Assembly (NCBI GenBank): GCA_963457665.1
Contig: OY735209.1
Location: 10,433,314 to 10,497,313, forward strand
DNA from: Thysanoteuthis rhombus
Lineage: Eukaryota; Mollusca; Cephalopoda; Oegopsida; Thysanoteuthidae
DNA length: 64,000 bases
Direction of reading: 5' to 3'
Part shown: one piece after another, positions 25,818 through 64,000 of the stretch
How positions within the stretch are numbered: the first letter of the stretch is position 1
Layout of the letters: each line of letters opens with the position of its first letter
Program-made: the position numbers and the translations under genes
The notes under the pieces: model-generated
The model's database searches: none
Told to the model about the DNA's origin: nothing
What the model saw: only the letters and a program-made list of their open reading frames with translations

Positions 25818-26070
25818 TTTTTTTTTAAAAAGCCATGCGATCAAACGTATATATAAATCACGGGACCTGATTCACACTCCACTCTTTTATGTTATGAACT
25901 GATGTGTTCCTTTAACGTGTAGATCATGACCCTCTAAGATTAAGCGATGTTGCTGAATATATACTATACTAAGCCTACTGAAGTAATTGCCTGTGGGAAA
26001 AGATTTTGTCAAAAAATGACTGCTTTCTTTCTATTTTTCAGAAAATAACTCATTTTCTTTCTATTTTCAG

Positions 26071-40785: not shown

Positions 40786-40886
40786 CTAAAGATTCAGTCT
40801 CAAGTAGATGATAATGACGGCCAATATCAAGATGAGGCCCAGGCATAATAAAGTGGTAGCGACCGCCACCGGGGCTGTATCGGCGG
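40786..40886 (-). CDS. Surface-protein terminal exon: transmembrane helix and stop
   Basis: Acceptor acttcttttctttcag, then a frame joined through Ser that reads ADTAPVAVATTLLCLG followed by LILILAVIIIYLRLNL and TAG at 40786-40788. The roughly 23 hydrophobic residues form a convincing membrane span, followed by a five-residue tail (LRLNL) with one Arg, so the rest of the protein is predicted to be extracellular (type I). The exon lies 4.6 kb from the previous one; the phase fits directly. A TTTATT on the plus strand at 40424-40429 (AATAAA on the gene strand) is a possible poly(A) signal about 360 bp past the stop. Confidence 0.85.
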
Positions 40887-42715
40887 CTGAAAGAAAAGAA
40901 GTAACTTTACTATCTACTTCCTGTCACATGACCAATCGTAGTGGTTTCGAAACTTTGACAACTCAAGGACCCCTTCTATAGAGAAAATATTCTGGTGAAC
41001 CCATATTTTTAGTACTTAGTAAAATAATCAATCAACTACAATAATAAACAATTTTTGGCCTTTAAAATCATTTTTAATATAAGCAGAAAACATATATTTG
41101 AATATACGACACAAGTCCCTGTGAAATAATTCTGTTTTTCAATAGCTGTGCAATGGATGATGATGCTTCTCTGCCACAAGATTTTAAATTTTAGTTTCGA
41201 AACCACCGAGCTAATGTATTTCAAAGTCAATGGGCGTCTTTCTATGAGTTAATGCGTGTTGCTGCCATATTGATCTCTGGTGGGTCAGATTCACTAGTAA
41301 ATGTATACTTTTATTTTCATTACTTATTTTCTTCTTTTTTTTTTACACAGTTCGCTCAGCACTGGATGAATAAACTATAGTATGAGGTTTGCCTGTAAGA
41401 TTAATATCAACCCCTCGACTCTGTCGAATCAAATCTTTATCGGGCATATAAATTTCTCTGCTTTCACGACCGCCGGTCAAGTTGAAAAAATGAGATCTTT
41501 TATCACATTTTTCAATACTCAGCAGAATTGTTATCTGTAACAGACTGAATTGAAATAAACACCCCGATAGATTTCTCGTCGTACGAACTTCAAAGGCGCC
41601 AATCTTAATGTATCCCAATACGTAACCATTTTTGTTGTTTTCAAGGTTTGTTCGCCAAGGAACTGGGAAAGGTAAAACAATGAAATCAAAGCCATTATAG
41701 TTCATTACATTTTTTATGATTCTTTTCTTTTTGAGCTCATGGCAATCTTATTTGCATGAGAATTTCTGTCGAGATGAATTATAAGTAAACTCCCCTCAAA
41801 CTCGACCGGCGGTCGAATCACTTTTTTTTTTTTAAACCTTACATGTTGCTTATATCTACTAAGAATAGCCAAGTACGACACACAGCCAAATAGATAGAAA
41901 TACGGAGAGGACGAATTTGATTGTGCCAACCTTCCAAAAGTGGAAGGCCTGTAAGCCTTGAAAATCAGCATTTTAAATCCTGGTCTTTTATCTGGGCTCG
42001 AACGCCGACTATTGGCATCGGTTGGAAGTGCTCAACTTCTTCAGCTACTCGATATGCCATAATTTTGGGGGGTTATTCCAACTGAGCGTGTAACCCGAAG
42101 AAAATGCCCGACTCCCAGACCGGGAAGAAGAGGAAAAAGACGTGCTATAAATCAGAATAACAGATAAACAAGCCTGGCTGCCACAGACTAAGTCTCTGCT
42201 CCTACTTCTATTTCAAGTGAAGATGATAATCCCATCTTTTGTATTGCACATACGAAGAATACTTTTAGAATACATAGAAAAATGTTGTGGACATGTAAGA
42301 CTATTCAGTTCGGCTCAGTCAGCAAGAGAGCCGCCAACTGATTGATAAGGTATGTTTTCAAATAACGATAGAGAGATGTTAAATTTATGGGTCTGGTTTA
42401 ACGTGATGGGACGAGCGGGGGGGGGTTTACTCCCCTAAATTAGGATAGGATTGTTCTTGTACACGTTGATCTTGTTACGGTTGAGAAATATAGTTAATTC
42501 TAATCTCCAACTTGGACTGAAGTTTGACAATAAATTCTCCTTGGCTGTTTTTTACCATATATATATATATATATATACTTCATTTGTATTGATCTTGTGA
42601 AAATAAGTTGAAATCATTCAAGCGATAAATGTGACCGAAGGAGAATCGAAAGTCAGTATTGACAGAGAGGAACAGCTGTAACACGAATAATTAGATACAT
42701 ACATACGTAAGAATG

Positions 42716-43088
42716 GTTGATAGATAGATATATAGATAGATAGATAGATAGATAGATATGAATAGATTGAATTAGACAGACAGACAGACAGACAGAATAG
42801 CATTGCTTCCATGATTTCTGTTTCTCTATGTTCTTTGAAATATACATATATGTATGTGTGTGTGTGTGTTAAGTGATCCGACACAATGTAGATGAAAATG
42901 ACTATTGGAATATGAAGATATAGGTTATACATCTAAAAAAATTAATATTCTGTGGGCGTAGTTCGATACATTCTGACGGGGCGAGTAACCATTTTTTTTT
43001 TCAGAGATATATACACAAATATATATTACAGAGGGGAAGAGAAAGAGAAGCCACTAAGATAAATACAAAAGTCATAGATATGAACAGA

Positions 43089-43166
<78 letters not shown>

Positions 43167-43188
43167 TAGATAGATAGATAGATAGATA
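42716..43188. repeat. GATA/GACA and AT arrays
   Basis: (GATA)n 42716-42760, (GACA)n 42776-42795, (AT)n 43093-43165, (GATA)n 43163-43188. Confidence 0.85.
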
Positions 43189-43418
43189 TAGATCTATATA
43201 TAGATAGATAGATAGATCATGTATGTTTAGTAGATTTTACATGAGCACAAATGTACTGACTGGTAGGGTGCTAAGAGTTTTGTGTTTTACCAATCGTCTT
43301 AATGAAGAGAGCCTGTCTCTGTTGGAACACAATCTTGGCATTAACCCTGACTACAAGCACCTGAGCAAATACTAAGCCGGTCTATGGAGAAACTATACAA
43401 CTACACATGAACGTACTG

Positions 43419-43475
<57 letters not shown>

Positions 43476-43914
43476 GTGTATGGCTGTAAGATAATCGGAC
43501 GAAATTGTGGTAGTAATTCAACGATGTGGAAGTGAAAGATTTGAGAAAAAAGGTGTCTTACATAACGATAAAGATGAATTACATAAGTCAATGTTGGTTG
43601 TTCACTCACTAATGGGGCATCCCTCTTTACAATTATTGACTTGCTGCGTTTATGCCAGTTCAGCACAGTGAGTTAATGAATGAGTTCAGGGCGTTATTTC
43701 GACCGTCAGAGTCCCAGTGGCTCCAACGGTTAGCACAGACTTGTGCTACATTGGTGCTCCTAAGAAAAAACCCTAGATTCAGATTGCACCGGGTCTCATT
43801 TTTCATTTTCTGATTAACACCGTTATTTAGCTCACTATAGTAAATAATTCGGTTCTAGCAAAATTCAGTTCCTAAAACTTACCTTTCCTCATTCACACAC
43901 ACACTTCCTGTTGT

Positions 43915-44009
<95 letters not shown>
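43419..44009. repeat. (GT)n, (CA)n and (AT)n arrays
   Basis: GT 43419-43474; CA 43918-43948 passing directly into AT to 44009. Confidence 0.88.
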
Positions 44010-44013
<4 letters not shown>

Positions 44014-45488
44014 TTGCTACGAAAACAACAGCTGTGTGACCAATAAGGCCTTTAATATGATGACTTTGAGTTCAGGCAAGGTTGATACTGAGGTCGCTCA
44101 GTACCTTACAATACCACAGGAATTTGTTGGTCCTCTGTCACAGTTTTGGTATACTAGATGAAAATGTCGCCTCATCATACGCTTTCTCTTGTACTCACAA
44201 ATTTCTATGCAATGTTCATGAGCCCATAATGTAGAATTCGTACTTCTTAACACTTTCCATCTTATAACAAATCTGCATTGAAGCCATCTAAAGTAAGATT
44301 CGTCATTCCTGCTTTTGATAATATATTTCCCATATTTTTAAAGCTACAATCCTCAGTTCTTTTCTAATTTTGAAGCTTAAACACTTTATGAATCGTAAAG
44401 CAGAATGTTCAAGCTACAAAACCTGAAAAAACTGAGCATCATAGCTGTAAAAATGAGGAAAATATCAACTATTCATAAATCGCTTATGACACATTGTCAC
44501 TCATATTTTATTGGATTTGAGCCTCGTTTATAGAATCATCCAAATATGTGTAAATACAAATATAGAAGTCATGAAGGAATTGATTACGTAACGTAGAATT
44601 ATTATGTATATTTCAAAAATGTCTATTTTTTTCCTTGAAAGGTTGTACGAAACCCCTCCAAAAATATCACTTTTTTTCCTGTAAAGGTTGTAAGGAACCC
44701 TGGGGTTCTGCAGAACATATTTTGGATACTGCTAATCTAGAATATTAGACTTTGACACAGAATTAATCAGGGTTCCAAAATAATTTGATATCCATGTTCT
44801 CTTTTTAAAGGTTATAAAAAAAGATAAATTCTTTAAATGGGAACTGTCCGTAAGTCTTTCAGAAACATGAAATATCTATACATTATTTACTATCAGATAA
44901 CTTTTAGAATTGTACACCTACAGTAATAACCAGTGGAACCAACATGGTGACACAAAAGTTGATCACAAGGATTCATTTACTGTAATCATTTAAATTTGGA
45001 ACAAATGTAGTAGAATTGCTCGTGGAATATCAACTGTATTGGATGAAGGTGGATATAGTGGCCGTGCTGCTCAAAAGGGATTCGGGGGTTATACATGGAA
45101 ATGAAAGATGCCCTTCGTAAAGGATGACTCGTAACTCTTGATGATGACGAACTGAGGACTTGTGTTAGACGCTTGCATCAAGGTTTGACACAAGCAATGC
45201 AACTATATGCTTGTATCTCGGATTTGTGAATTAGATGAGAACTATTTTACCTAATTGTTCTAATAGTTTTCACAGTAGAGGCTAGCTCGGATGTTAATCC
45301 CAAACTATGATTATTAAGCCACAAATCACCCAGGTTTTTATGCATGCTTCAAGAAAGCGGTTTCAGGGGAAATTCGATTTAAGATATATATCTATCTGCA
45401 ATGAAACTTTTTCTCAAACTAGTTGGAGACCACAAACAGATTGAGAATTTTACTATTATGTAGATAAGAAGGAAAAATGCCTACTTAC
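44010..45488. other. Intron of surface-protein gene, nothing recognised
   Basis: No exon or named transposon; a diverged duplicate motif aaggttgta.gaaaccc occurs at about 44640 and 44685. Confidence 0.4.
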
Positions 45489-45554
45489 AAGACTGATTTG
45501 GTTGAATTTCCTCGTAGGTTTCGAGGTCGCTGCAATGCACTGGAGGAGGGGCCC
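45489..45554 (-). CDS. Surface-protein exon: acidic juxtamembrane linker
   Basis: 66-nt exon, acceptor tttgaaatttcaacag, donor GTCTT|gtaagtag, phase 1 both sides. It encodes G-APPPVHCSDLETYEEIQPN-QS, with one Cys. The position directly before the transmembrane exon suggests a short membrane-proximal linker. The exon is short, but it is phase-consistent and the donor is strong. Confidence 0.75.
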
Positions 45555-46331
45555 CTGTTGAAATTTCAAAGTAAAATAATGTGAAAATAATTTACAGATT
45601 GCAATACGTTCGTGAAAATGTAGTGAAAACAAACCACATCAAAATAGAGCAATAATTACATGCTTAGATCCAGTCCCGATTTCCGGAAAAAAAAGGAAAT
45701 CTCTTGCAATATATCTCATCAGCTGCTTCGAGAACTGTCACGTTTGTCGGTTATTTTATGGTTGACACGCTACGCCTGAACAACCTCTATCATTATCAAA
45801 TATCTAAGTCCATTATACTGCTTCATACATGCAGTAAGTACCTGCTTAGCTGACTTGAATTATATCTGTATCTTGGAATAGAGGAAAGGGATAGGGGTAA
45901 AGCTTCTTGAGTTATCAAGATCCCTGGATCTCTCGTAGAGAGAAGAACAATAGTAATTGTACTGAAGCAAAATAGATATTAGACAAGTTAATCTATACGT
46001 CGATGATAAAGGGAAAATGAAGGCTCAATCTCAAGTCAAACCACAAAATATAAATCTCTATTATGAATGATATATAACAAAAATAAGGGAGAAAGATTAT
46101 GTTAGATATTACTCGTCAATAGGTCAGTTGATGGAATACAGGATAAGCACCTGGTGTACCGAAATGTACATTCGTTTTTAGTGCATACAAGTGATAGATG
46201 AAACGTAATCAAAGGAAAACACAAGATTCATTTCGTGGACGTGAATAGTTACTTTTATTTTTCTCTCGAAAGGTGGCCGGGAAACACTGCGGTTAAAAAC
46301 GGAAAGAAAATGGGTGCAACTCACATTTAAC

Positions 46332-46338
46332 AGAGAGA

Positions 46339-46373
<35 letters not shown>
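46332..46373. repeat. (GA)n microsatellite
   Basis: GA repeats with one AACA interruption. Confidence 0.85.
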
Positions 46374-46376
<3 letters not shown>

Positions 46377-46799
46377 ACGTGGGTGTCACTCTGAGTTTTA
46401 TCTTTCTTTTTTATCAACCATCAAGCCCAATTTATTTCAGCTCACATCTGACAATAGCGAAAAGGAGCAGAAGACATCTCAATTAGCTCCACCTTGCCTG
46501 GCCTCAACCCTTAGCTGGAAAGGAGATTGTGAGCGAGCGGTCAACACATGTCTGCCTCTTCCGACTGCAATTTTAGACTCTCAACTAAAAATATTTTCAA
46601 AATCACCCCGACAAAATCTAGGCATTGATTGGATACTTAAGGACTATGTGCCTTCTTTCGATACGCAGCTTCACTTTATTCGGGCGAGGTATCCATACAT
46701 CATAAGCACTTGAAAATGTCAGAACATAAAATCCAAACTATGTTTTCGAGACGCCAACAATTATGAAGTCGCCAGATTTTCTCCGTCGGGTCATCATTC

Positions 46800-46950
46800 T
46801 GACCTTTCCGGCTGTCGACTGAGAGACCTCGAGATAGCTTCGTGTGGGACCATAATTTCCGCCAGCCAAATTATAATCAAATTATACGAAACCAAAAATC
46901 CCAACGGGTTCTAATCATCGATGTTGCACTCCCCCACGACATCCTGTTAC
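46800..46950 (+). pseudogene. Short LINE endonuclease-like fragment
   Basis: A plus-strand reading gives QRVLIIDVALPHD, resembling the IIDVAVPxD motif of RLE-type LINE endonucleases, with no intact flanks. Weak, motif only. Confidence 0.3.
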
Positions 46951-47535
46951 ACTGAGACTAGTTGGTTTGATAAGCATTTGATCGAAGTTCATTGATATTT
47001 TGTGAAGAAGTTCCTTTAATAAACCGAATGATCCATTATTGGCAGTTATCCTATGAAAGGATATTGATGCCATTGAGTTCATAGAAAGTATGTATGCAAT
47101 ATTCCAAAAGTAAACAGAGAAAGATATGGGCACAGAATATTGACCATATTAGTTTCTCGCCTCGAAAAGAAAATCTTACATGGTTTTTACAACAATGAAC
47201 ATTCATCCTGTAGATTGGGAAAGGCCTCTGGCTTCATATACAGGCAACCGTTTAAATCTCTGTTGGTGCGTCGTCACCGTAGCTCATAGAGCGGTGCTCC
47301 TGGGCGTATTTGATCCAGAACTATATTTCGAAAAGCCTGGGCAGCAACTGAGAAGAAATGGTTATCCCCTAGCGCTTTTTTCCGTTTTCATCTGGGTCTT
47401 TTCGAACCTCGGGTATTTCCGCCTATTTTCGTATCGAGACCAACTACTATGTGTTTGGTGGCATTAAAGGACAAAGAAATTTCTCGCGAGACATTCTGTC
47501 AGCTGTTCCCAAGTTAATAGATATGAATAGACTGG

Positions 47536-47580
<45 letters not shown>
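47536..47580. repeat. (GATA)n 30 bp from an exon donor
   Basis: GATA array ending about 30 bp from the donor of exon 47611-47748. Confidence 0.88.
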
Positions 47581-47610
47581 AGAAAACTGTTAAAAGATAC
47601 AATTAGTTAC

Positions 47611-47748
47611 CTTGGACACATGTCTTCCTATCTTTCGATGGACCGTATGAATACAAGCAGAAACAGATTGGGGGACCACACCCAACGTCCAAACATTGAG
47701 ATAAAGGTGGACACACGTCCTCAGCGGTGCATTTTTCCAGCAGGATAC
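47611..47748 (-). CDS. Surface-protein exon: seven-cysteine module B
   Basis: 138-nt exon, acceptor attttctcttcaaag, donor CCAAG|gtaacta, phase 1 on both sides. The frame reads ILLEKCTAEDVCPPLSQC and ends DRKTCVQ. Cysteine spacing C-X5-C-X5-C-X4-C-X4-C-X-C-X12-C is identical to module A (56410-56553) although the other residues have diverged, so the two are duplicated modules on either side of the stalk. A different minus-strand frame is open through the interval but breaks the splice phase. Confidence 0.85.
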
Positions 47749-47839
47749 CTTTGAAGAGAAAATTGTATAATTTATTGCATTGGAAAAACTTGTTTTAGTC
47801 AGCAATAAAGATCATCTTCCTTTGTTGTATTATGGAGAA

Positions 47840-48085
47840 ACTTTCTATAGTCTGAAAGTATGATAATCCAAACGTATCGAAAAACCACACTAGGTTGACA
47901 AGCTTTTGGTAGAGCAAGCTCGACTTTCAAGAACAAGAAAATTCCACTAGTCCTAAAAAGGAGAAACAGCCAATGCATTCTCCCGCCAGTCACATGTGGA
48001 AGAGAGACGTGGAATCTAACCGAAAGTTTGACCCTCAAACTGAAACCATGCAACGTGCACAAGAGAGAATCATGCTCAACCTCAC
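47840..48085 (+). mobile_element. RTE-type LINE fragment, arm 1 of an inverted pair
   Basis: Plus-oriented LINE blocks (gacaagcttttggtagagc; gaccctcaaactgaaacc). It ends where the opposite-strand fragment begins. Confidence 0.55.
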
Positions 48086-48430
48086 GGGAAGATTTGCCAG
48101 ACCTCTCCATCATGCACATCGCAGAGCCGATACTTTCTGACTGGTCTATTTCGTTATACTATCGTGTTTTTTGCCGGTTACGGTTTCGCACATGATCTCT
48201 GGAGATTCACGTTGTGAGTCGTGATGTCCAGTGGTTGCCTGACATTCTCACAACATGAACAGCCCACTGTCATTTGAGTTTTATGGATTCAATGACATCT
48301 TACGCCACCGGTTTTTCTCTAATATAATGTGCTGTCCTGTGATCTCTCCACGTTATGTTAAACATGATTCTCTCTCGTACACCTTGCATTGTTCTCAGTT
48401 TGAGGGTCGATCTTTTTGTAAGTTTCCATT
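48085..48430 (-). mobile_element. RTE-type LINE fragment, arm 2 of an inverted pair
   Basis: Minus-oriented blocks (gtgatgtccagtggttg, cacaacatgaacagccca, cagtttgagggtcgatc). The last is the complement of the block at about 48030-48075, so the two fragments can pair in a transcript of this intron. Confidence 0.55.
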
Positions 48431-48435
48431 CCATA

Positions 48436-48622
48436 AAAATGGAGCTGCTGCAGAAATCGAACCTTCCACCAGTAGGGTAGCCGCTTCTACGTAACGATGC
48501 CCTTACCATTGAGAGCAGTTATTTGAGCTTTTGCATTCCCTGTGTCTGTTTAGCTCAATGGTAAGAGCATCGCTACGTTGAAGCAGCTACCCTATCGCTG
48601 GCAGGTTTGGTTCCTGCAGCAG
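48436..48622. repeat. Inverted pair of tRNA-like SINE heads
   Basis: The right arm at about 48548-48622 has an A-box-like tagctcaatggtaagagc and B-box-like ggtttggttcctgc. The left arm (48436-48515) is its near-complete inverse. The 72-nt arms around a roughly 30-nt loop would make a long hairpin. Neither arm folds convincingly as a functional tRNA. Confidence 0.6.
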
Positions 48623-48797
48623 TCCCATTTTCTTTAATTGTTCATTTTATTTTTGTTGTCTAGCGTGAATGATACATTAACCGTGTAATGACGGAAAATC
48701 ATCTCAAATAAATTTCGAAACCATATAACGCGATTTATAATCATACCTATATATATAAAAAAGAATATGTGGATAAACTTGAAATATTTATACTCAC

Positions 48798-51014
48798 GGT
48801 TATAGAAAGTTTGTTCTTCAACGATTTCATCTATTTTCTCCCTATCTTCGTCAGCGTCGTTGTTGTAATTCACTGGTTCAATCCCGTCTCCCGAACTTCC
48901 AACAAAATGAGAGCCGTCATCTGAAATGGACAGCCCCAAATCTGGGCTTTCTTCCTGTAGCACTTCTTCCATCCCACCCTCATTTGATAAAGTAGCAGTG
49001 GCCTCTCCTGAAGGAGAACTCCCAGAAGTACCCCACGGAGCGGAAGTGGATGTGGCCAGTTCATCAAATGTGTTACCTAATTCATTCGCCGTACTACTTG
49101 GCACTAGAGTGTCACCCAAAAATTGTTCTCCGGTTATTTCATTTGAAGACATACCATCGAATTTTACAGTCGTTGTCGAAAGACCTCCATTCGCTGTGCT
49201 GAAATCAAGACTCTCGTTTAGTGAGCTGTCATTTGCTAAAGACTCCATGTCAAATCCCTCGGTTGAATTAAACGAACTTGAGCTACCATTTAACGTATCT
49301 TCTGCGGTTTGATTTTCGTTTTCCAGATCCGAATCATCTATTACATATTCGAAATCAGTAATATTTCCAGTGCTCTCGCTACCGTTAATAGCGTCCAAGG
49401 CGAAGCTTTCATTCAATGAGCTCTGGTTGAAATTTTCAAAGAATTGATCCAGACTTTCATTTGATGAGTTGCCAGAGAATTCGGGCAGATCATCTACCGT
49501 AAAGTCATCCGAAAAATTTCCACTGAGGCTACTATTTGAAATCTCTTCGTCATCGCTAATGTTCAAAGAAGCGATATCGAGACCCTCATCTAAACTGCTG
49601 GAGTTAAAGAAATCGTAATCGAGGCTATCATTAAGCGCCATCTCATCAAAACTACTATTCGAAAGGCTGCTATTAGAAATACTTGAATTGAGGCTACTGT
49701 CATCTAAAAAGTCCATATCAAAGCTGCTATTCGAATTGTCTGCATCAAAACTACCGTTAGTGGAAAGAATATCGCTGGTGTCATTCCACAAATCAGTGTC
49801 GTTGAAAAAATTTAGTTCGTCAGGTAAGAATTCTGCATCAACGCTCTCGTTAAAATCCATCGCATCGAAGTCGTTTGACAAAGAAAAATTAGATGTGCCG
49901 TTAAGGGCGCTCAGGTCAGGGTCACCGTCTAAAGCGAGGCTCGAGTTGTCTGAATTCAAACCCAGGCTGTCATCCAAGAGTTCAGAACTATCATTTGATT
50001 CGATACCCATCAAGATATCCGTGAGACTTAGGCTGTTATTAGCGTCTATCTCGCTCGCCTCAACTGTTTGGTTTCCATCAAATTCTTCCTCGGGTAAGAA
50101 TTCTGCATCGAAGCTTTCGTTGAAATCCGCCCCATCGAAGTCATTCTCCAAAAGAAAATTGAATGTGTCGTTGAGAGCAGTCAAGTCCAGATCATCGTCC
50201 AAAGCGAGGCTCGTATTGTCTGAATTCAGACTCATACTGACGTTCAAAAGTCCAGAACTTACGCTGTCATTTAACGTGAAAAGTCTGTCTGCGATTTCAT
50301 CGGCTCTGAGACTGTTGTTTCCGTCGCCGATCATCAAGTTCTCCAGGAGATTTATGCTATCATTAGCTTCTAACATGCTCATGGAGAGAGTGCCATTCAA
50401 CGAATCAGTATCAACGCTTTCGTTGGAAAAACTCAAGTCGTCAGGTAAAAATTCTGCATCAAAACTCTCGTTAAAATCTGCTGCATCGAAGTCATTAGTC
50501 AAAAGGAAATTAAATGTATCATTGAGGGCGACCAGTTCATTGTCTTCATTTAAATTGAGGCTCGCATCGCTTGAATTTAAACCCATGCTGACGTTTAAAA
50601 GTTCAGTACTTGAGCTCTCGTTCAACGAAAAAAGTCTGTCAGCGATCTCATCAGCTCTGAGACTGTCGTTTCCTTCGCTACCCATCAAAATACCCAAGAG
50701 ATTTACGCTACTATTAGTGTCTGGCTCGCTTGACTCAATCGCCAGGCTTTCATTGAAATCTCCCTCGAAAGGTTCCAGGGTTGAGCTGTAATTAGTGTCC
50801 GGTGCGTCCACTTCGATCGTCAGGCTTTCGTCGAAATCAACCTCAGAGGGTTCTAGGTTGTCTTCAGCAATACCATAGGTCGTTGATGGTAATTCTTCGA
50901 CCCATCTTGCAGTGACGCCAAGCTTGGATCCGGTACGTTTTAAGACGCTCAAATCAGCAATTTCTTCGGGCAACTCGACACATCGCAATTCATACTCGGC
51001 AGGACTGAGTTCTT
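48798..51014 (-). CDS. Surface-protein giant exon: acidic, N-glycosylation-saturated stalk
   Basis: 2217-nt exon with acceptor ggttttcttgttttacag and donor AACC|gtgagtat. It is one continuous open frame of 739 codons. The start has a single Cys (YELRCVELPEE); the rest is Cys-free. By hand count about 48 N-X-S/T sequons occur. Lys/Arg are almost absent between the first 50 and last 100 residues apart from two SLRADEIADRLF blocks. Three diverged long repeats of roughly 90-115 residues carry ALNDTFNFLL, DFNESFDAEFLP and ILMG/LMIG motifs; shorter FNSS/LNSS-type units follow. A heavily N-glycosylated, extended, negatively charged ectodomain is inferred. The long plus-strand frame opposite it (49688-50791) is an antisense shadow. 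Confidence 0.9.
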
Positions 51015-51654
51015 CTGTAAAACAAGAAAACCACCAGCAGATATTATTCATCATCAGTTATTCATGTACCCATGATATCACAGGTAAGGGTTGATCAAAC
51101 AAATATGCTGAACTTACATTCCCTCTAGTGATTATATGTAAGGTGACACAACAAATACTAAAAAGCTAATATGTTTTGACGAATCGGTGACATTGGCAAG
51201 GTTTTTTTTTACAAATAAATAAAAAAAATACGTAGCTTTGATTTTATCAAAAGTTCATTTGATCAAAACAAGGTTATAAAATGATTATTTCTTAAAATCG
51301 AAAGTTAATGTAAACAAAGTGTAATCAAACTTTTTTTTACAAAAATAAGTAAGTTTCGTGAATTGGACAATTTCACCGATTCGGCATTATATACATACAT
51401 TCATTAGAAGTCAATCTGCAAGTCTTTTCAAAATATAAGTAAGTATGTAATTTTGACATGTTTTTATTTTAAAAAAAAATAAATGCATAATTTTGATTTC
51501 ATCAAAAGGTTTTATATATATATATATACATACAAAATTTCATTGGAAATCGTTTCACTATAGCAAACTATTTTGGTTCTAACCTTTTTACGGTACCTGT
51601 GATATTACAGGTAGTATTTATCAAATAAATACGTCAAAGCGTTTGTTAACTCCA

Positions 51655-53420: not shown

Positions 53421-53657
53421 CCATGTTCATTATAGCTGTAAGGCTATTGCTGACACCTAAGATCGTTAGTCTCGGATTTCCATTACCCCCTCAGTATTCT
53501 CGCAGTATTCTTGCATTGGAATTTCCATCGTAATCTAGGATTACCACCGCCCAAGACAGTCTCTAGTTTGTGTTGGTACCATTCGTCTATATTGGATGAA
53601 CCTTCGTCGTTTGCAGAGTCCAGAAAACGGAGACAAAATAAGAAGAAAGGCTCTTAC

Positions 53658-53987
53658 CACTTGATTCCCCGATGGCAATGCAAGGCGGCAACTTGTTCGG
53701 GTGATCTAGCTTTTCGTCGGGTGTCATTTCCCTCATCGTTGGTGGGCAGCGGCAAACACCCTCGGTGCACATTGCACTCTCACACAGCTTCATGACATCA
53801 CCACGATTATTGCATTCCTCTCCCAGGGCTGCAAATTCAATGCGGCCTGGAATGGGAGGTGCCGATTTGCACTGGTTATTGGCGGCCTCAACGGAGCCGC
53901 GGCTGCATTGACATTTTCCTCGGATGCAGGCAATGTATGCCCCCACGCATACCACTGTATCATCGCACGGTTGGTGTAGCATCACGC
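53658..53987 (-). CDS. Surface-protein exon: two EB-like cysteine modules
   Basis: 330-nt exon, acceptor aaaaaatctttgtag, donor AAGTG|gtaagag, both introns phase 1. Module 1 begins MLHQPCDDTVVCVGAYIAC with spacing C-X5-C-X6-C-X4-C-X-C-X11-C. Module 2 begins at LGEECNNRG with spacing C-X9-C-X4-C-X4-C-X-C-X21-C. The CxC pair and six-Cys layout are the hallmark of EB modules, found in invertebrate secreted and receptor proteins. An in-frame ATG early in the exon is not the start, because the upstream exons splice in with matching phase. Confidence 0.88.
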
Positions 53988-54454
53988 CTACAAAGATTTT
54001 TTCGAAAAATAGAAATTAATTAATTAGTGATAAACTAAAGCATCTGCTGTCTTTTTTACCACGGTAAAAAAGAAAATATGATTTCTAACTCCTCTGTCAC
54101 GTTATTTTTGTAAAAGCATTTCTTTAATGTATTATTACTATGTATTTGTGTTTATCTAGCACCACATCATATAATCAAAGGTTATTGTTATTACAAGTTA
54201 CAAAAATGGCAGCATGTATGAAATATATGGATATGCATGGCATTTTATGTACGAAGATGATACAGATTTACATTGCAGTGAGTTCGGAGAAAGGCGTTCT
54301 GTGAACCACGAACGGATTTTTTTTTTTCGTTTGTTTTTGTTGTTATTACTTTTGTATTTTTATCACTCTTTGAATTCAGCATTTCTATGTAATTAGAACA
54401 CGGATAAAATATCTATTTTACAACGCCAGTTGCGTCCTTTAGCGTGACAGAAGA

Positions 54455-54460
54455 CATCTG

Positions 54461-54532
<72 letters not shown>

Positions 54533-54800
54533 CAATAATAATGATAATAATAATAATAATTTTCACGACAGTTGCCTGATGGTCACAGCTGGAGGCCGAG
54601 TGACAGCAAGTCTCTCCAGATCACCAGCCCTCCACTCCACACCCTCACGGTCCACAGCATTACCGTGGTTTACAGATTCGCACCAGTTGCCCGGTGGTTA
54701 TCGCAGAAGGCTGAGTTACAGTAAGTCTCCTCAGGTCTTCAGCCCTCCTCTCATCTCTCCCTCACCTATCACAGTGGTGCTGTGGTTCGTACCTCCACCA
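54455..54800 (-). mobile_element. RLE-LINE 3' tail with (ATT)n, minus orientation
   Basis: A long (ATT)n array at 54463-54531 is followed by ttgcctgatggtcacagctgg, gagtgacagcaagtctc and a second unit with caccagttgcccggtgg. It is the same tail family as at 23320-23590, in an intron of the surface-protein gene. A weaker relative lies at 53229-53420. Confidence 0.6.
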
Positions 54801-55699
54801 CCATTTGTGTGTGTATGTTCTGTTTGTTTTTTTATCCTTTGTCACCCATGTAGTCTTTGAACAAGTAGTAACTGATGGTTTAAAGTGGGTATTGAGGTAA
54901 GGTAAGTCTCCTCAAAATTCTAGCACCCTCCACAGTATTCTATTGTTTGCTCTCATTGAGTTTTTGAACCGTCAGTTTACAAGTGACCGCAAGTTCCCTT
55001 CAAAACTCAAGCACTCTCCGCAATATTCTATTGTTTTCAGTATTGCCTTTATTTTGAGGGTCTCTATTTTTACTCGGATTTCTAGTGCCTCTTAGCCAGT
55101 TGGTAGGCTTTTCAGGATCGTTCCCAGCATTTCCAACAACGATTGGCAATACTGCTACAATTACATTTCATATTTTCTTCAATGCTCTAGTGAGAATTAT
55201 CCAGATAGTTTCATCAATGTTATCATTTGGCGTAGAAGGTCCTAGAAACTGCAGAAGAGCCAGACAAACTTTTGACAGACAGACAGACAAACAGGCATAT
55301 TGGTGGGGATAGAAGCATATGCATGCACATGTGTGCATATGTATGCGCATGCACGCTTGAATGAGGGTGGCGTAATAGTTACCGACATAGACAATGAAAT
55401 CGGTGAACACAATACGAATTTCAATCGAGGATGCAAACATTCATTCAACACTAATGTCCTAAAGAACGGCATGAATCAAATTTTCCCGAGGCTCCATCCC
55501 ATTGTCAGATATCTTGGCAAAATGTCTTGTCACTGGTATGCCGCGATTGTCGACGGATAAGAGGATGAGTGGCATTTGGGCAAACCACTCTCCCATATCC
55601 ATCTGCTCAGATGCAATAGTAACATGAAGCTGTTACTCTCATAGTCAAACTTATCAGTGATCAATGAGAACAATAATGATGATATTATATATGTGTATG

Positions 55700-55757
55700 A
55701 TAGAGAATTGTGGCGATTCCAGGGGAAGGTCTATGTCCAACGATGGACGTTAAAAGA

Positions 55758-55804
<47 letters not shown>

Positions 55805-55830
55805 GATGATGATGATGATGATGATATGTG
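55700..55830 (+). mobile_element. RTE-type LINE 3' terminus with (ATG)n tail
   Basis: ggtctatgtccaacgatgga with cgttaaaaga leads straight into (ATG)n at 55757-55825. Comparison with 800-975 shows the shared terminus. Confidence 0.65.
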
Positions 55831-56409
55831 TGTACCTTCTTTGCATCATAAGTATGTTCATGTACCTTGACCGTGATGCTTCAGATACAAGAGTTGTCTA
55901 GATCACACGATGCACCTTGTCACGTATTGTTCCAGAGGTCTCTGAACTTCGTAAGTGACCAGGGATGACGAAACATATTCTTGCAATGTAGTCTAAATCA
56001 GTGTTTGTTTTTTTTTTAATACAATATATCAAATTCTTCAGTAGTTGCCAATGATTTGAACTGTGCCTCAAATTTTTGTCGGTTGGTGTTACTATATCTG
56101 TGATCGCTTGATGTCCTCTTTTATACACACAGTCCGATCCTGTCCCAGCTTCTTTAACACATAAAATTCACTCAGTTTAATCAAACGTCAAAATACACGA
56201 GAGAAATCTCATTTGTATTCTACATGATTTTCTCAATAGTCATTTCACCCGTAATATTGTCGAATGACTTATAATCTATATCGACGTACCACCATATACC
56301 AGAGCTTAGCAAGCTCTCATCACAGACCATTCGCTCGATTCTTACGCAGACGGCTATGAATATGGCATGGAAATTTAACAAGAATGCAAAAGATAATATT
56401 GTTCGTTAC

Positions 56410-56553
56410 CTGGCTTGCATCTTTCCATGTTCCTTGTGGGTACCGTACCGTTCACACAACGGCACTGTTTCGATTCGCATCCAATCTGCTTACATTTCGA
56501 ATTGTCAGGACAATTATTGCCAGTGTTACATTTCTGTCCAATCAAAGCAATAC
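56410..56553 (-). CDS. Surface-protein exon: seven-cysteine module A
   Basis: 144-nt exon between acceptor cattcattttcag and donor CCAG|gtaacg. It encodes a complete small module starting IALIGQKCNTGNNCPDNSKC and ending ERCKP. The cysteine spacing is C-X5-C-X5-C-X4-C-X4-C-X-C-X12-C, with one N-glycosylation sequon (NGT) in the last loop. The pattern resembles EB-type extracellular modules but has an extra Cys. Exon 47611-47748, beyond the stalk, has exactly the same spacing. An overlapping plus-strand reading is a shadow. Confidence 0.85.
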
Positions 56554-56599
56554 CTGAAAATGAATGAAAGAAAAAATCTTTCTTAAAAATAGCTCCAGT

Positions 56600-56970
56600 T
56601 CAATAGAATCTGTCACGTGACAACGTCTTTTGGCAACATGCTGTGTTTGGGCTATCACAAAAAAAAATTTGAATTTTCGTAAAGCAAGCGTGAACGCTGC
56701 CAGACACATACTAAGGGACTAATTTGACATGAATTTACATTGTAAATCACCCCCCTCTCCCATCTGAAAACCTATTTACAGGGAATTTTCCAGGAAAGCG
56801 TTTTTTTTCTAGGCATTATACGGAATAAATGTTCAAATGTTTAGCCCTCTAAATCCTTTGTTGCAGCCTGTACGCGCAACACATACATAGATAACCAGTC
56901 AGACAGACTCACTTGAAAATAGGAAAAACTCACGTTGACAGTTTTGTGACAGAATTGGTTGATAGTTTCT
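56600..56970 (+). repeat. Dispersed repeat family, plus copy
   Basis: ctgtcacgtgacaacgtct, ggcaacatgctgtgtttggg, gctgccagacacatactaag, gcagcctgtacgcgcaac, cacgttgacagttttgtg. It lies about 45 bp from module A's acceptor on the opposite strand. Confidence 0.6.
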
Positions 56971-57539
56971 CACAAATGATCAAGATTTGATCAAGTCGAT
57001 TCTTCGATAAAAAGTAGAAATAATAATGATTTTTTTGTGCTCTCTATCCATTATTTCCCTCGGTGAATTTTTCACTTCCGAGAAAAGGTATTCGTGGGGG
57101 TTCAATTTACAATGTAACAATAATGCTAAACTAGGCATGTTTTCCGCCATCAAGGCATGTGGTGCGTAAATTCACATTTACTTTAAATGCTGTATTTAGT
57201 AAAAAAATGGCTTGAAAAGTAATGACAAATTTATAAATAGTATAATTGAGAACTATTTTTTCAGATTAAGTTTGTAATATTCAACTTGTTTTCTCTGTAG
57301 TATATTTTTTAAACAACAAATATATTTTGGTTTGCCTGGCCCTTATCAAAGGCCAGTTGACAAGATGGGTCCAGATTTTATTAATCGGTCAGAAATCATT
57401 TTAAAACAAGATGATGATACTTGCCTGTCTTGTAACAACATAAACTTATATATCGTATATCTGTTATCTATATTACTTGATATTATTGATAATTATATAA
57501 TAGTGATCGAGAATATATACGAAAATATCACTGCCATAA

Positions 57540-58480
57540 TGACTTTTCATAAAGATGCTAACAAGATGAAGACTGGGAAAGGAGTGAGACAAGGGGATAT
57601 AATAGCAGGAAAACTCTTCACGGCGAACCTTGAAAGCACCTTCCAGGGAACAGACAGGGAAACGTGGGAGTGAAGATAGACGGAGAATATTCGTAGAATT
57701 TAAGGCATTGTGATGTTATTGTATCAATAGCAGAAGCTGCGAAGTATCTACAAAACATGTTGAGTGATCTAAATAGAGAAAACCAAAAGAAATAGGTTTG
57801 AAGATGAACGAAACAAAGACAAAAGTAATGTTCGGTGATAAAGCCCTGAAAAAAGCCATAAGAATAGATGGGAAGCCTTAGAAGAAGTTAAGGGATACAT
57901 TTACCAAGACCACGCGATAAAGTCTGAGAAATACCACGGATAAGATAAGACGGAGCCTAACGATTGATTGGATAGCATTTGGTATGAATAGAGAATACTG
58001 AAAAGCGAATTATCAGTATGCTTGCTTAAAACGTAAAGCATACAAACCAGGCATAATACCAGGTATGGCGTACAAACCTGAAAACTTAAAAAAACACTGG
58101 AAGAACAACCCAGGACTGCACTGAGGACAATGGAAAGAGCATCGTTAGGAATAACTCTTAGAAAAAGATTAAGACGAATCTGAGAGAGGCCCAGAGTAAA
58201 GGATATCGTACAAGTAATTAAACAACAAAGGTGAAGATGGGCAGGTCACTTAGCAAGAAGAAGGGACAACAGAATGAGCAAAACGCTAACCGATTGGTGC
58301 CTGCAGGACAGTAAACACAGCAGGAAAAGACCACTGAAAAGATGGAGAAATGAAATAGAGAAGTTTTGCCGATAATACATGACAGAGGTCAGTGAAATCA
58401 CGCTCGTTATGGGAGGAAGTTGGAAAGGCCTTTGCATGTGTGGTGAAAGATAAGGAAAAAACAATCTCAAACGGGCAAAG
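57540..58480 (+). pseudogene. RTE-type LINE, reverse transcriptase C-terminal half (broken)
   Basis: Motifs in order across frameshifts: GKGVRQGDII with KLFTANLE (palm), then SDLNRENQK, GLKMNETKTKVMF, then RWAGHLARR and a Trp-rich end (LKRWRNEIEKF). This is the usual order in RTE-like LINEs common in molluscs. Stops interrupt every segment, and the F-A-D-D box is not intact. The element lies in the surface-protein intron, opposite to its transcription. Confidence 0.75.
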
Positions 58481-58741
58481 ATCATTTCAGTAAATAGATA
58501 TCTGTATGTGTGCGTTATAATTCTATCTATTACCCTCGCTGTAATATTTGTTCCAGTTTTTGCTCTTCAGTCAGCTTCGTATTTTGCTTCTGTACATACT
58601 TATTCAAATAGGCAGAAGAAACAACTTTATTCATAATATTCTGACGATGATATGAATAAACATCGAAATATTGCTATAATCAACTACTTACTCCGCGATA
58701 TTAATATTGATTACTGATAAGCATGCTTTTCGAGCTACGTT

Positions 58742-58744
<3 letters not shown>

Positions 58745-58822
<78 letters not shown>
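58745..58822. repeat. (AT)n microsatellite
   Basis: Pure AT, about 78 bp; another of 44 bp at 59417-59460. Confidence 0.9.
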
Positions 58823-58824
<2 letters not shown>

Positions 58825-59412
58825 AAATAAGGATTAGCTTGAAAAACATATTTATGTTTCTGCACTATTTAGGCTCCTTCAGGTGAATGATTCGGTTTAT
58901 TTTAGATTCCTATTTCGGACATTGGGGGGGGATTTTTTCTAGGTTGTCTTCTTTTTTTTCTATTGATATATGTATTTATTTTTTATTTTGTTTTGTTTCT
59001 TTTGTTTAGTGGTTGGTCATTACTTGTTATGTTTTTTTGTTTTATCTAATGGGGATGCTATGCTTCTTGGTAATCATGAATCATAAATTTGGAGGGTATA
59101 GTGTAGGCATTTCCACTATCAGTTAATCCATCAGTTCTTTGTGGTATGTTTTGTCTCTATGTACATAAATATACATAGTGAACAATTGGGAATGAGACAA
59201 ACTCAGAGGTAAAGGTATATGGAGACTTTATTTGTTAATTAATTGATTGAAAAATTAATTCGTATACTATGCATGTTCTGGGAATGGTCTCCATTTTCCC
59301 ATCTTCAATGGAATGTATATACCTTTTAGTCGTTAAAAAATTAGGTTTCCGTAGAAAACAAATTTAGCATAAAATGTTTTGCTTTGAAGGCAAAAATGAA
59401 GATTCATGGGTG

Positions 59413-59461
<49 letters not shown>

Positions 59462-59609
59462 TCTATTCTGGGTTGAGCACTCTTGCCGTAGTGAGGTAAC
59501 TCATCCATTGTACGCTTATGCAATGCTTTTCCATAGGAATAGAGCACTCTGGTGGATGAGGAATATCTGTGTAAATGGATATATCGCTTAAATTCAGCTT
59601 TGCTGACTA

Positions 59610-59785
59610 TCCGGTTCTGTAGTTCAGAGGTAGGATATCGGCCTCCGGGTCTGAAGTGAAGATTCTAATTCTGCCTCGTGGTACTGGATGGGATAATGGA
59701 AAGTCTATAGCCACACTGAAGAGATGTAATACATCGAAACACCTGTCTGTGGATGACACAATAATATAAGTATATACATCTATAT
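59610..59785 (+). mobile_element. SINE-like repeat, copy 1
   Basis: Shares ggatgggata, tctatagccacactgaa, and ctgtctgtggatgaca with 63165-63285 in the same order and spacing. Its upstream part has a tRNA-like gtagttcagaggtagg. Confidence 0.6.
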
Positions 59786-59805
59786 TCTTTCGTCATTTTA
59801 CTTAC

Positions 59806-59844
59806 CTATGATGTCTGGTTTTTTACATTCTTCGAGTTCAACTT
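59806..59844 (-). CDS. Surface-protein micro-exon (13 codons), acidic linker
   Basis: A 39-nt exon between a pyrimidine-rich acceptor (ttatttttattttgcag) and a strong donor (ATAG|gtaagtaaaa). Joined in phase it adds VELEECKKPDIIG between neighbouring modules. Its phase (1-1) matches the exons on both sides exactly, the main reason to believe so short an exon. It contributes one Cys, possibly the partner of a Cys in an adjacent module. It could be a cassette, since skipping keeps the frame. Confidence 0.72.
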   Translation of the reverse strand, partial: KLNSKNVKNQTS

Positions 59845-59944
59845 CTGCAAAATAAAAATAATTTATCAAATAAACAAGGGGTTTGAGAAAATTGAAATTA
59901 AAATCTACGCTTGCTGAACATGGCTGAAACATGAAGTAAAAAAC

Positions 59945-60735
59945 AGGTCTGCTTAGTCACTTAATGGCATCCATGTTTTGGCAGCATGCCACGTTGGGTA
60001 GTCCGCTCGGATAGTGTGATGGTTAGCACGTCTGTCTCACACGCAGAAGGTCCTGAGTTCATATTCCCTGTATGCATGGAGCAGGTGGAAAACTCTTCAT
60101 CTGGACAATTTTCCCTGATTGAGTACACTCTAAGCTGTATGATTAAGTTGGAGGCATTCCTTCGATGGGTTTGCACCCTACAAAGATGGTGGTTGTAAAA
60201 ACTATGCAGATAAACGTAGGAATAAAGTCCTGGTCTCGACCAAACTTGAGGCTTGCAAGGGTCACCAAGCTGATACATGTAGTAGAAACTGGGATTTCAT
60301 CAACGGCTGTCATACTCTATGGGGGCTTGTGTGTCTCTTCAGAGACGTGACACTTTACCTCAACATGTTTGGGGTGATCAATTGGGAAAAAGGGTTATCA
60401 ATGAATAAATTAATTCTCTTTGCTTTTTGTTGGGAAGTGATCACTAAAAAAATCTGAATTTTCAACAAAAAAAAACCCTGGGTAAAAACTTAGGAATTTA
60501 GTGTAAACTTTTAAAAAAACTACCCCACAATTTAAAAAAAAACTATTGGGGGAAGGATTTGAAAAATTGGTTTTTACTAGATATGATTTACTAGATATTT
60601 GGGTAAATGTTGAAATTCTCGGCTCCCTAGATCTGCTAGTGCAGCCTGTGCTCGTGATACATACATACATAGCCAGCTAGACCAACTTAAAAACTGAAAT
60701 AAACCTATGTTGACAGTTTTAGTTGCTGGTTTCTG
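59945..60735 (+). repeat. Dispersed repeat family, plus copy split by a SINE
   Basis: Left part aggtctgcttagtcactt to gccacgttggg, then the tRNA-Val-like insertion, then ggggtgatcaattggg, cagcctgtgctcgtgatac, cagctagaccaacttaaa and atgttgacagttttagttg. Confidence 0.65.
60000..60360 (+). mobile_element. tRNA-Val-like SINE inserted in a dispersed repeat
   Basis: The head resembles tRNA-Val(CAC): gatagtgtgatggttagcac, anticodon stem tctgt/gcaga around loop ctcacac. The T-arm is eroded (gagttcatattc), so it is not a tRNA gene. About 300 bp of body follows. The flanks (gccacgttggg and tttggggtgatcaattgg) are two halves of the repeat at 59945-60735, showing insertion into it. Confidence 0.6.
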
Positions 60736-60789
60736 AGATTTGATCGGGGAAAAGTGCAGGTGAAGTGTAAAGCGTGAAATATTTACCTA

Positions 60790-60905
60790 GAATATTACGT
60801 AGTGGATATCTGCCGTGGAATGATGGGTAGTAAGCTTTTCTTGCCGACCAATTAGTTCGGGTTGTGAGTTCGATCCTCATTGAAAGACCCACTATTATTA
60901 CGATA
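60790..60905 (+). mobile_element. tRNA-like SINE head with strong B-box
   Basis: ggttgtgagttcgatcctca is a near-consensus B-box, followed by gacccactattattacg. Confidence 0.45.
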
Positions 60906-61210
60906 TTTACAGCAAGTTATCTTTAATTGCTAACTATCTGATTCCCCCCAAAACAGATCATTGGTCAATTTATTTATCAACGTCCCTTTCTACTTATGTT
61001 ACTTCGATTTACGCTTTAAAAAAATGTCCTCGTGGATCCCAGCCCGTTGCTCTCCCACTTGATAGCCACAATCACGGACTATTTTTACGTTCTTCTAAAT
61101 GTGTTGCTATGATCAAATATCCATTTTGAAAGTTTGTTTCTGGTTGTAACTGCAAGAAAATGGCATAAAGCTAGTCGGAAGAGGAAGGAAAAATTCTTTT
61201 GCGAACTCAC

Positions 61211-61258
61211 GGGGGATTTCTGAGCAGATTAAGGACGTGGTTACGTTCTTGACCAAAA
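61211..61258 (-). other. Possible cassette or decayed exon of the surface-protein gene
   Basis: A strong donor (ATCCCCC|gtgagttcg) on the minus strand ends a 48-nt stretch whose phase-1 reading gives V-LVKNVTTSLICSEIP, open, with one sequon and one Cys, resembling the Cys-bearing linker at 59806-59844. The acceptor side (caacgaag) is purine-rich and weak. Inclusion would keep the frame. It may be optional or degenerate. Confidence 0.25.
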
Positions 61259-61259
61259 C

Positions 61260-63100
61260 TTCGTTGATTCTGCCATAATTGGCGGATGAATGATGTTGAG
61301 TTTTGAAATTCTTTCAAAAATAGAATTGACTTCAGAGAAATTTTATTTTTTTAAAAACTTTATCTAATGATTAATTCACTGGATTTGGGAAAATATTACT
61401 TATTTTTCACCGAAAACTCAGTGAAATCAGTGAAAACTGCTCAAAGGTCAAGTAGAATTGTTTCTAACTCCTCCTATCATATCTGCTGTCAGTGACAAGT
61501 TCGTTTTTAATTTTTAATGGATGACAAGAAATGACAACAGCCCATCAATATTCTGTCAACACCTACTCATAGATACCAGGGGAGGTAAATAAGATTTCTG
61601 AATTATGCGCTACTGTACCTTGTGAAATGAAGTGTATGTATTTTTTATAATGATAGAAATTCTCTTTAAAAAGACAGGTAGATGAAAATATTATCCATAA
61701 GTATAGCGACATTCCTTCTGATGATAAGATTCCAAGAAGATCCAATGAGTACTATCATTGATAATCTAATGACAATTTTTTTCAAAAATATTATGAAAAT
61801 GATTTCCAACTAATATTCTTTTCTTTTTGAAGACAAAACCTGTACACTGTACTTTATTTAAAACAACGACAAAAGCCTTTTAAACAGGAATATTCCTATT
61901 TTTTAGTTGATAATTTTCTACAATCTTTATTTCTATAAATAACACAAAACATAATGATTATTACGATGTAATAATGGGTTTCGAGTCACAGATCGGCACG
62001 TGTCGCTTTTTGCCAAAAGTCCGTGATTGTTGCTACCAAATATTTCAGTTTTTCAGTTGATAATTATCAACAATCTTCCCTCTTATCAATAACAGGACGA
62101 TTATTACGATACAATCAATAGATTTCAAGTTACATACGTTTTAATCGACACATGTCACTTTTTACCCAAAAGTCCGTGGTCGTTGCAACCACTTTGAGCA
62201 ATACATGCTAGGCACCGACAAACAATATGCGCTCGTAATAACAAGCCACTTCATCACTTTGCTTTGCATTGGAGGAGTTTGGTAAAGAAAGAAAAAGTAT
62301 TTCTGAAAGTTTTTGGCTGTTTGCGTGACAAATGAAAGAATAAATGCTTAACTGGCAGACTTGATTATGTCCGCAGATTGAGAGAGGTCTGCGATTAGGA
62401 AAGATTTTTTTTTACAATTTCTTTTTGTTGATTTCGCTTGCACAAGATTTGGCCGGCCTGCCTGCCTGCTTGCTTGCTTTATTCCTGGGTGCGGGTGTCG
62501 CACTGGTCGCTTCCATGTTTATCTGACATGCAAAGAAAGCTAAATTGACTTTCATTTTTATCTGTCATGTTTTAGCATTTGTTTCCACTCAGAATTAGTT
62601 ACGCAACTCACGTTGAGCATATTGCAAGTTTGGCTTCGGTAAGTGCGCTTTTAAGGACTGTACCTAAAAGCTCGTATAGATAATCTGGCATTTTTTCGTC
62701 AAAAATCATAGCGGCCTAATAGAAAATTCGTTGACTAAAAAGGATTATGTTTCGTTTACTTGTATTTTACTCGACCTTTTAAAACAATCTGCTCATAGGT
62801 ATTTGACAAAACCAGTCGATTTGAAGATAAATACTGGCATAAATGAATCATCGTAGCTTGCATGTGTCCCAGAACTAATTATCGAATAATGAATCTGAAA
62901 TTATCTTTAAAAAATAGATCTTATATATAAAATTATCTAAAAGATACCAGCACAATATTTGAGCTCTGTCTGTCCAAAATGACCACAATAGACCCCAAAG
63001 GGCACTTTTTTGGGGGAAAAAATTAGATGGTGCCAAGTCGTATTGTCATGCAAATTATCAAGGTTGTGGCCCCAAAAATGCGACCCTTAAACACCCCCCA
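61260..63100. other. Intron of surface-protein gene, internal duplication
   Basis: 61900-62050 and 62045-62190 are diverged tandem copies (ttagttgataattttctac / tcagttgataattatcaac; ttttgccaaaagtccgtg / ttacccaaaagtccgtg). No exon seen. Confidence 0.45.
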
Positions 63101-63106
63101 CAACTT

Positions 63107-63107
<1 letters not shown>

Positions 63108-63166
<59 letters not shown>

Positions 63167-63272
63167 GCGAAGGTTTCGATCCTACCTCGCAGAACTGGAT
63201 GGGATATTGGATTGTCTATAGTCACACTGAATAGTTGTAATACAACGAAATAGCTGTCTGTGGATGACATAA

Positions 63273-63345
<73 letters not shown>
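63108..63345. repeat. (CT)n and (AT)n around a SINE-like copy
   Basis: CT 63108-63163, SINE-like unit, AT 63278-63345. Confidence 0.9.
63165..63285 (+). mobile_element. SINE-like repeat, copy 2
   Basis: Contains tttcgatcctacctcgc (B-box-like), then actggatgggatattgga, tatagtcacactgaa and ctgtctgtggatgacataat before an (AT)n array. Sister of 59610-59785. Confidence 0.6.
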
Positions 63346-63349
<4 letters not shown>

Positions 63350-63471
63350 GAGAGAAAGAGACAAGAGACGAGCAAAGAGAGAAAAATCAGTAGACCACTT
63401 ATTGCCCATTGGTTGGTCTGGTGGTTTGTGGGATTACATGAGTTGATATCTTATTCACATCTGGACATAGA

Positions 63472-63545
63472 GAGGTGCAGGAAGCCTAATGGTCAGTTGC
63501 TCGGAAATGGAATCGGTGGACCATGTTCAAACTCTGGTACAGACA
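63472..63545 (+). mobile_element. tRNA-like SINE head
   Basis: gcctaatggtcagttgctcg, ggaatcggtggacc and B-box-like gttcaaactctgg match the head family at 40129-40205. Confidence 0.45.
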
Positions 63546-63906
63546 TTCTGTTAACTTTGCACTAATGCTTTTGGGAACGACAGGAATCCATCTCTTCATC
63601 CGAAAGTTATGGGGGAATAGCACAGTAGATTAGGCTCTTCAGCCTCGCTCGGCAACCAGACTAGGAGATGGACAACTCTGAATCCAATCCGAGAAAGTCC
63701 ACCCCTTGTCTTACTCCGTGAAAGGCTGGCTGTTAATTGTGAATTCCCGTAACCGAATGATTAAAATCAGCCAGGCAGATAGTGGATCCCCTCTGGCGAT
63801 AGGGAATGAGTTCGATTCTCACTGTGGGCTTATTCTTTATTTCCGATTACGCTGTTTAATCGTTGCCGTTGAATTACGGTCCGAGTCAAAAAAAAAAACA
63901 ACTTAC

Positions 63907-64000
63907 CTAAACTGAAATCTTCCGGTCGACACTCATCTAAGATGAAAGGTTCAGCATTCAAATCGATCCCCGATGCTGGTTTCAGCCCTTCTCGACAGGT
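63907..64000 (-). CDS. Surface-protein exon, end of a Cys module (cut by window edge)
   Basis: Minus-strand exon ending at TTTAG|gtaagttg. The frame imposed by the next exon reads TCREGLKPASG, then a segment with DECRPEDFSL. Two Cys residues, one near each end, resemble the last two cysteines of the EB-like modules in the later exon 53658-53987, so at least one more module lies upstream of the window. The exon is open on its 5' side at 64000; its true acceptor is not visible. Phase 1 donor. Confidence 0.78.

Follow-up and report, generated by a model that had tools for sequence, protein, structure and literature searches.

An EB-module gene in Thysanoteuthis rhombus with a long, acidic, sequon-rich exon

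A gene on the minus strand of the stretch analysed here (64,000 nucleotides, hereafter called the window) joins cysteine-rich EB modules to an acidic rod in which N-sequons are strongly enriched. We consider it probable (roughly 0.6) that this cephalopod gene codes for a membrane-anchored glycoprotein of the secretory pathway that consists of EB cassettes with a sequon-rich acidic insertion and has a passive extracellular role. An EB linker exon has apparently expanded, by way of repeats, into an insertion in which the sequons seem to be selected, and the gene would thus illustrate an exon-by-exon route to a large glycan-presenting segment.

Gene model and the two ends of the protein

The window corresponds to C12:10433314-10497313 in the host assembly (2.73 Gb, 514 contigs). 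In its genomic DNA, eight minus-strand exons join into an open frame of 1,042 residues that ends in the stop codon TAG (Table 1), and AG/GT and phase 1 are consistent at all seven junctions. A first-pass annotation of this DNA had proposed the same eight-exon, one-phase reconstruction, and its exons, splice sites, and phases were all reproduced. The eight-exon observation is therefore confirmed and the gene itself is real, but our reading of it is partly changed. The earlier statement that the model is directly supported at all seven junctions holds for splice sites and phase, but is too strong, because the 66-nt exon resembles a chance occurrence.

To be specific, exons were scored with a generic splice-site matrix, summed per exon, and the chance control consisted of open phase-1/1 candidates on both strands of 94.4 kb of neighbouring sequence. 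The 39-nt linker exon is not chance-like, and its score is reached by no candidate on either strand. The score of the 66-nt exon is equalled or beaten by 11 and 19 separate candidates on the two strands, and this exon is therefore unproven. Because it is symmetric, skipping it keeps the frame open and lowers the number of extracellular cysteines from 41 to 40. The rod exon is contained in an open frame of 807 codons.

Table 1. Features of the EB gene, with positions in the window
Feature	Positions	Strand	Details
3' 94 nt of first double-EB exon (modules m1A, m2A)	63907..64000	-	cut by window edge
39-nt linker exon, one Cys (EVELEECKKPDII)	59806..59844	-	splice score 20.9
Single EB module exon m3A, 7 Cys	56410..56553	-	Pfam EB E = 0.00025, 21.5 bits
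Second double-EB exon (m1B, m2B), 12 Cys	53658..53987	-	Pfam EB E = 4.2e-08, 33.6 bits, 2 stretches
Rod exon, 2,217 nt, 739 residues, one Cys near start	48798..51014	-	acidic, 48 N-sequons
Sole Cys codon of rod exon (ELRCVELPEE)	50980..50982	-	proposed partner of EB-like module after rod
Rod repeat R1, 117 aa	50365..50715	-	
Rod repeat R2, 108 aa	50041..50364	-	
Rod repeat R3, 79 aa	49804..50040	-	
Juxtamembrane EB-like module exon m3B, 7 Cys	47611..47748	-	Cys spacing as in m3A, z 3.9
66-nt putative linker exon (APPPVHCSDLETYEEIQPNQS), uncertain	45489..45554	-	splice score 12.4
Terminal exon: hydrophobic anchor, tail RLNL, stop TAG	40786..40886	-	hydropathy

The window cuts off the 5' end of the gene. 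The whole first exon of the model, C12:10497561-10497220, has 342 nt and encodes two EB modules. The upstream search covered 100 kb of the host contig, including a 5,000-base run of N. With loose thresholds, the scan for first exons gave five rows with four donors, of which the best was C12:10507606-10507534, ending in phase 1. This candidate, selected by home-made criteria, lies about 10 kb upstream and encodes MFPRMLIFALCLAITASETLGQDE. A strict scan (donor score at least 8.0, hydrophobicity at least 3.0) of the upstream region and the window, amounting to 328 kb of strand on both strands in three phases, gave two matches: the same exon and one of low complexity. Its predicted product looks like a classical signal peptide, which makes it a good candidate for the signal exon. 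With it, the model has nine exons and 1,149 residues, and additional small exons may lie within the 10-kb intron that separates it from the first EB exon.

At the C-terminus, NQSSADTAPVAVATTLLCLGLILILAVIIIYLRLNL, hydropathy over 19 residues peaks at 3.05, an Arg stands close to the end, and the tail amounts to some four residues. The hydropathy peak agrees with a C-terminal hydrophobic anchor; the membrane span given in the first-pass annotation is a putative one. Against Pfam, the C-terminal part gave only DUF5408 (E = 0.047, 14 bits), which lies below its cut-off of 25.

The window also carries a paired-like homeobox gene, which we take to be DMBX-like, on the plus strand at 14169-26534, convergent with the EB gene. 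Its homeodomain (E = 1.1e-15) and an OAR motif at the cut-off lie in separate open frames. A U6 snRNA match on the minus strand at 33513-33609 scores 50.6 bits, above the gathering score, and a plus-strand open frame at 24800-25543 has a weak zf-RVT match below the cut-off and is perhaps a retroelement remnant. Elsewhere in the genome, at C25:56608286-56626269, nine haemocyanin-type matches of identical score and frame length are spaced by about 2.18 kb; this array is either a recent amplification or an assembly artefact. A haemocyanin-type frame of the genome has its best PDB match in the squid haemocyanin 6r83, one unit of which gives 812.8 bits, while the best unit of the next sequence, 3j32, gives 510.1 bits; this makes a cephalopod origin likely.

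EB modules and the duplicated cassette

The EB-like modules claimed earlier were borne out by an HMM search, in which the N-terminal part matched Pfam EB (PF01683) in three stretches with E = 3.2e-13 and 50 bits, above the gathering score of 24.3. Taken alone, m3A (21.5 bits) falls under this cut-off, and m3B gives no match to Pfam EB. Each of the six modules is closed by C-x-C-x(11-21)-C and has the conserved EB cysteine pattern. No homolog of the EB region was found among PDB sequences at E up to 1, and an NCBIfam match at E 0.27 is meaningless. Also, none of the EGF-type families in Pfam exceeded its cut-off, the best being EGF_Mua-3 (E 0.27) and cEGF (E 0.095).

In the nine-exon model, the exons contain 1, 12, 1, 7, 12, 1, 7, 1, and 1 cysteines. 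Exons 2-4 encode two EB modules, a linker with one Cys, and one EB module with seven Cys, and exons 5-7 have the same order, with the rod as linker. The best matches between the two copies, A and B, are those of modules in equivalent positions: m1A-m1B with z 4.4 and m2A-m2B with z 3.2, where the last loop has 21 residues in both pairs, and m3A-m3B with z 3.9, where the Cys spacing of 5,5,4,4,1,12 is identical. Non-equivalent pairs, six in all, range from z 0.4 to 2.2 between copies. Evidence against a cassette duplication comes from within copy A, where m1A-m3A has z 5.2 and m2A-m3A has z 3.6; within copy B, the modules show no mutual resemblance (z -1.0 to 0.7). The cysteine part nonetheless looks like a duplicated three-exon cassette of two EB modules, a one-Cys linker, and one EB module, and the linker exon of the second cassette seems to have been expanded into the rod.

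The first-pass annotation had placed the rod as a stalk between modules. We regard this as doubtful, because the cassette and the cysteines suggest that the rod was inserted into an EB module's linker, with weaker evidence from copy A. Modules m1 and m2 have six Cys each and m3 has seven, so the unpaired cysteine of m3 would most naturally bond with the single linker Cys. With residues 1-18 of the rod exon attached, m3B scored 13.9 bits against the EB model (E 0.059, below the cut-off), and the match begins at residue 11, beside the linker Cys at residue 12. Control linkers joined to m3B (one Cys-to-Ser and eight shuffles) gave reported matches in 0 of 9 cases, which means not reported, as HMMER filters hide weak matches. 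In copy A, the real linker with m3A scored 23.8 bits, the Cys-to-Ser version 21.8, and eight shuffles 21.2-24.7. Because one shuffled linker outscores the real one, the linker-Cys argument is weak for that copy.

Given the cysteine counts and the weak HMM result with its controls, we tentatively propose, as a possibility short of an even chance, that the rod is a sequon-rich loop of more than 700 residues within an EB module, with a disulfide at its base between the Cys at the rod start and exon 47748-47611. The linker exon of a duplicated cassette would then have been enlarged by internal repeats. If so, the cell surface would bear a giant glycan loop closed by a disulfide, and this arrangement yields a concrete disulfide prediction.

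Searches of the host genome with R1-R2 and with a non-repeat part of the rod as queries matched only this exon. The first double-EB exon found itself and one match at E 0.92 that is interrupted by a stop codon. A whole-genome search for the EB family gave 23 places, a list that is incomplete because the window's own modules are missing from it. At the listing criteria used, no comparable rod was found in 14 stretches of 10 kb at the EB loci on C31, C33, and C28:37360802, a set of which 2,500 bases of C31 are N and to which the places on C13 and at C28:5308949 do not belong. EB-like open frames form clusters at C33:24474116-24490588 and C31:47928415-47973616, where some copies are nearly identical, and one frame of 610 codons has about a dozen EB modules by eye.

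Composition, repeats and sequons of the rod

The rod comprises 120 S, 95 D, 91 L, 77 N, 76 E, 47 F, 43 Thr, and 17 Pro, and has 171 acidic (D+E) versus 12 basic (K+R) residues. Its 48 N-sequons, which span residues 277 to 802 of 1,042, compare with a mean of 16.5 in 2,000 shuffles (SD 3.4, maximum 30). These counts uphold the acidic, N-sequon-saturated rod of the earlier description. With 17 Pro, 43 Thr, and 120 Ser against 171 D+E, the rod is without the Pro/Thr/Ser-rich make-up of mucin-type O-glycan segments, and neither Pfam nor NCBIfam gives a match to it with E of 1 or less. An open frame of 390 codons runs antisense to it (49619-50791, plus strand) and is probably a by-product of rod codon composition. 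In the intron after the rod, at about 48490-48640, a tRNA-like inverted repeat is visible by eye; ARAGORN finds no tRNA there.

The rod includes three tandem repeats, which are absent from the first-pass annotation. Nei-Gojobori dN/dS is 0.19 for R1-R2 (dS 1.33, near saturation), 0.32 for R2-R3, and 0.31 for R1-R3, and the repeats are under purifying selection. Over these three pairs, Asn is retained in 18 of 21 cases in sequons versus 8 of 18 elsewhere (p 0.015), and S/T in 16 of 18 versus 15 of 28 (p 0.022); both p-values are optimistic, because the pairs share sequences and are not independent. The middle residue of the sequon is retained in 8 of 21 cases. Sequon positions common to both repeats make up 7/9, 4/6, and 3/7 of the union in the three pairs. 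Because N and S/T are retained while the middle residue varies, the comparison speaks for selection that acts on the sequons themselves.

Among the 48 sequons, 38 are N-x-S, and in 15 of these the middle residue is D or E. Sequons of such types are poor glycan acceptors, which speaks against full glycosylation; the hyperglycosylated state named in the first-pass annotation is a prediction. In charge and hydropathy, the rod lies beyond the boundary towards disorder. For R1-R2, AlphaFold2 gave a mean pLDDT of 40.9, with low-confidence helices only and no confident fold, an uninformative result obtained on a three-row alignment. When 25 angles were tested against 100 shuffles, hydrophobicity showed periods of about 2.2 residues (z 5.0), 3.0 residues (z 4.5), and 4.8 residues (z 3.2). 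The repeats may be partly responsible for these periods, which hint at some structure in the rod. A helical rod was rejected, the signal being absent at 100 degrees (z -0.9). A study of 500 human N-glycoproteins reports that N-glycosites lie mostly in ordered regions (PMC7142085), so dense site occupancy in a disordered rod would be unusual.

Proposed role, alternatives and known systems

In the explanation that we favour, the candidate signal peptide would bring the protein into the ER, and some 20 disulfides would form as the two copies of the EB cassette fold. The acidic insertion would be borne by the second copy, where it is probably largely unstructured and dense in N-glycan sites, and the C-terminal hydrophobic segment would anchor the protein, with a cytoplasmic tail that is nearly absent. 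Outside the cell, the EB modules would most likely bind a partner or matrix, and the negatively charged, glycan-bearing insertion would most likely act as a spacer, shield, or ligand-presenting brush. With so short a tail, signalling by the protein alone is unlikely.

The anchor itself allows another reading that is compatible with this explanation, namely that the hydrophobic stretch is a cleaved GPI signal. The small residues SSA, the spacer, the hydrophobic tail, and the near lack of anything beyond it are suggestive, but the Arg close to the end argues against such a signal, the hydropathy peak equally suits a single span, and the proposed site falls where the doubtful 66-nt exon is joined. 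We regard a GPI anchor as less likely than not. The rod, for its part, might be an acidic segment that binds calcium or mineral, or a polyanion for matrix assembly; its sequons would then mostly carry no glycan and would merely follow from a composition rich in Asn, Ser, and Asp. This proposal agrees with the charge imbalance and with the abundance of N-x-S sequons, many with an acidic middle residue. However, sequons are about threefold more numerous than expected from shuffled composition, and between repeats their N and S/T are retained above the rest while the middle residue changes, which makes the proposal unlikely in our view.

We give still less credence to a division of the exons between two genes or alternative transcripts, one of which would encode the EB modules and the other the rod. 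The rod exon is symmetric, has a length that is a multiple of three, and could be skipped. Nevertheless, all exons share one strand and one phase at 7/7 junctions, EB-like exons with matching cysteine spacing flank the rod on both sides, and m3B is matched by the EB model only in combination with the beginning of the rod exon (E 0.059).

As the first-pass annotation supposed, no family that spans the whole architecture was matched in Pfam or NCBIfam. Also, among the matches listed in a literature search, mostly of non-subscription papers, no EB protein with a large sequon-rich insertion appeared, and an annotated yet unstudied ortholog may well exist. With EB-module proteins (PF01683, InterPro IPR006149), the predicted protein has in common its EB HMM matches, a six-cysteine core, and tandem modules. 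Published accounts describe tandemly expanded EB genes in the flat oyster (PMC9679249) and multi-EB proteins in Anisakis (PMC5763927), and a paper on the desert-locust gut gives the EB domain as "Function unknown" (PMC10484617). The squid gene differs from these EB-module proteins by its large sequon-rich insertion.

Multi-module phagocytic receptors of the Nimrod/Eater and Draper types are anchored in the membrane and contain small cysteine modules in several copies. The protein predicted here has such modules and a putative anchor, but no EGF-type family exceeds its cut-off in it. Sialomucins and fractalkine-like surface proteins combine modules, a long glycan-bearing segment, and an anchor. 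The squid protein shares this plan with stalked adhesion and mucin-type proteins, its glycan-bearing segment being predicted. Their rod is of the P/T/S-rich O-glycan type, whereas the squid rod is acidic and rich in N-sequons, and it may interrupt a module instead of forming a stalk.
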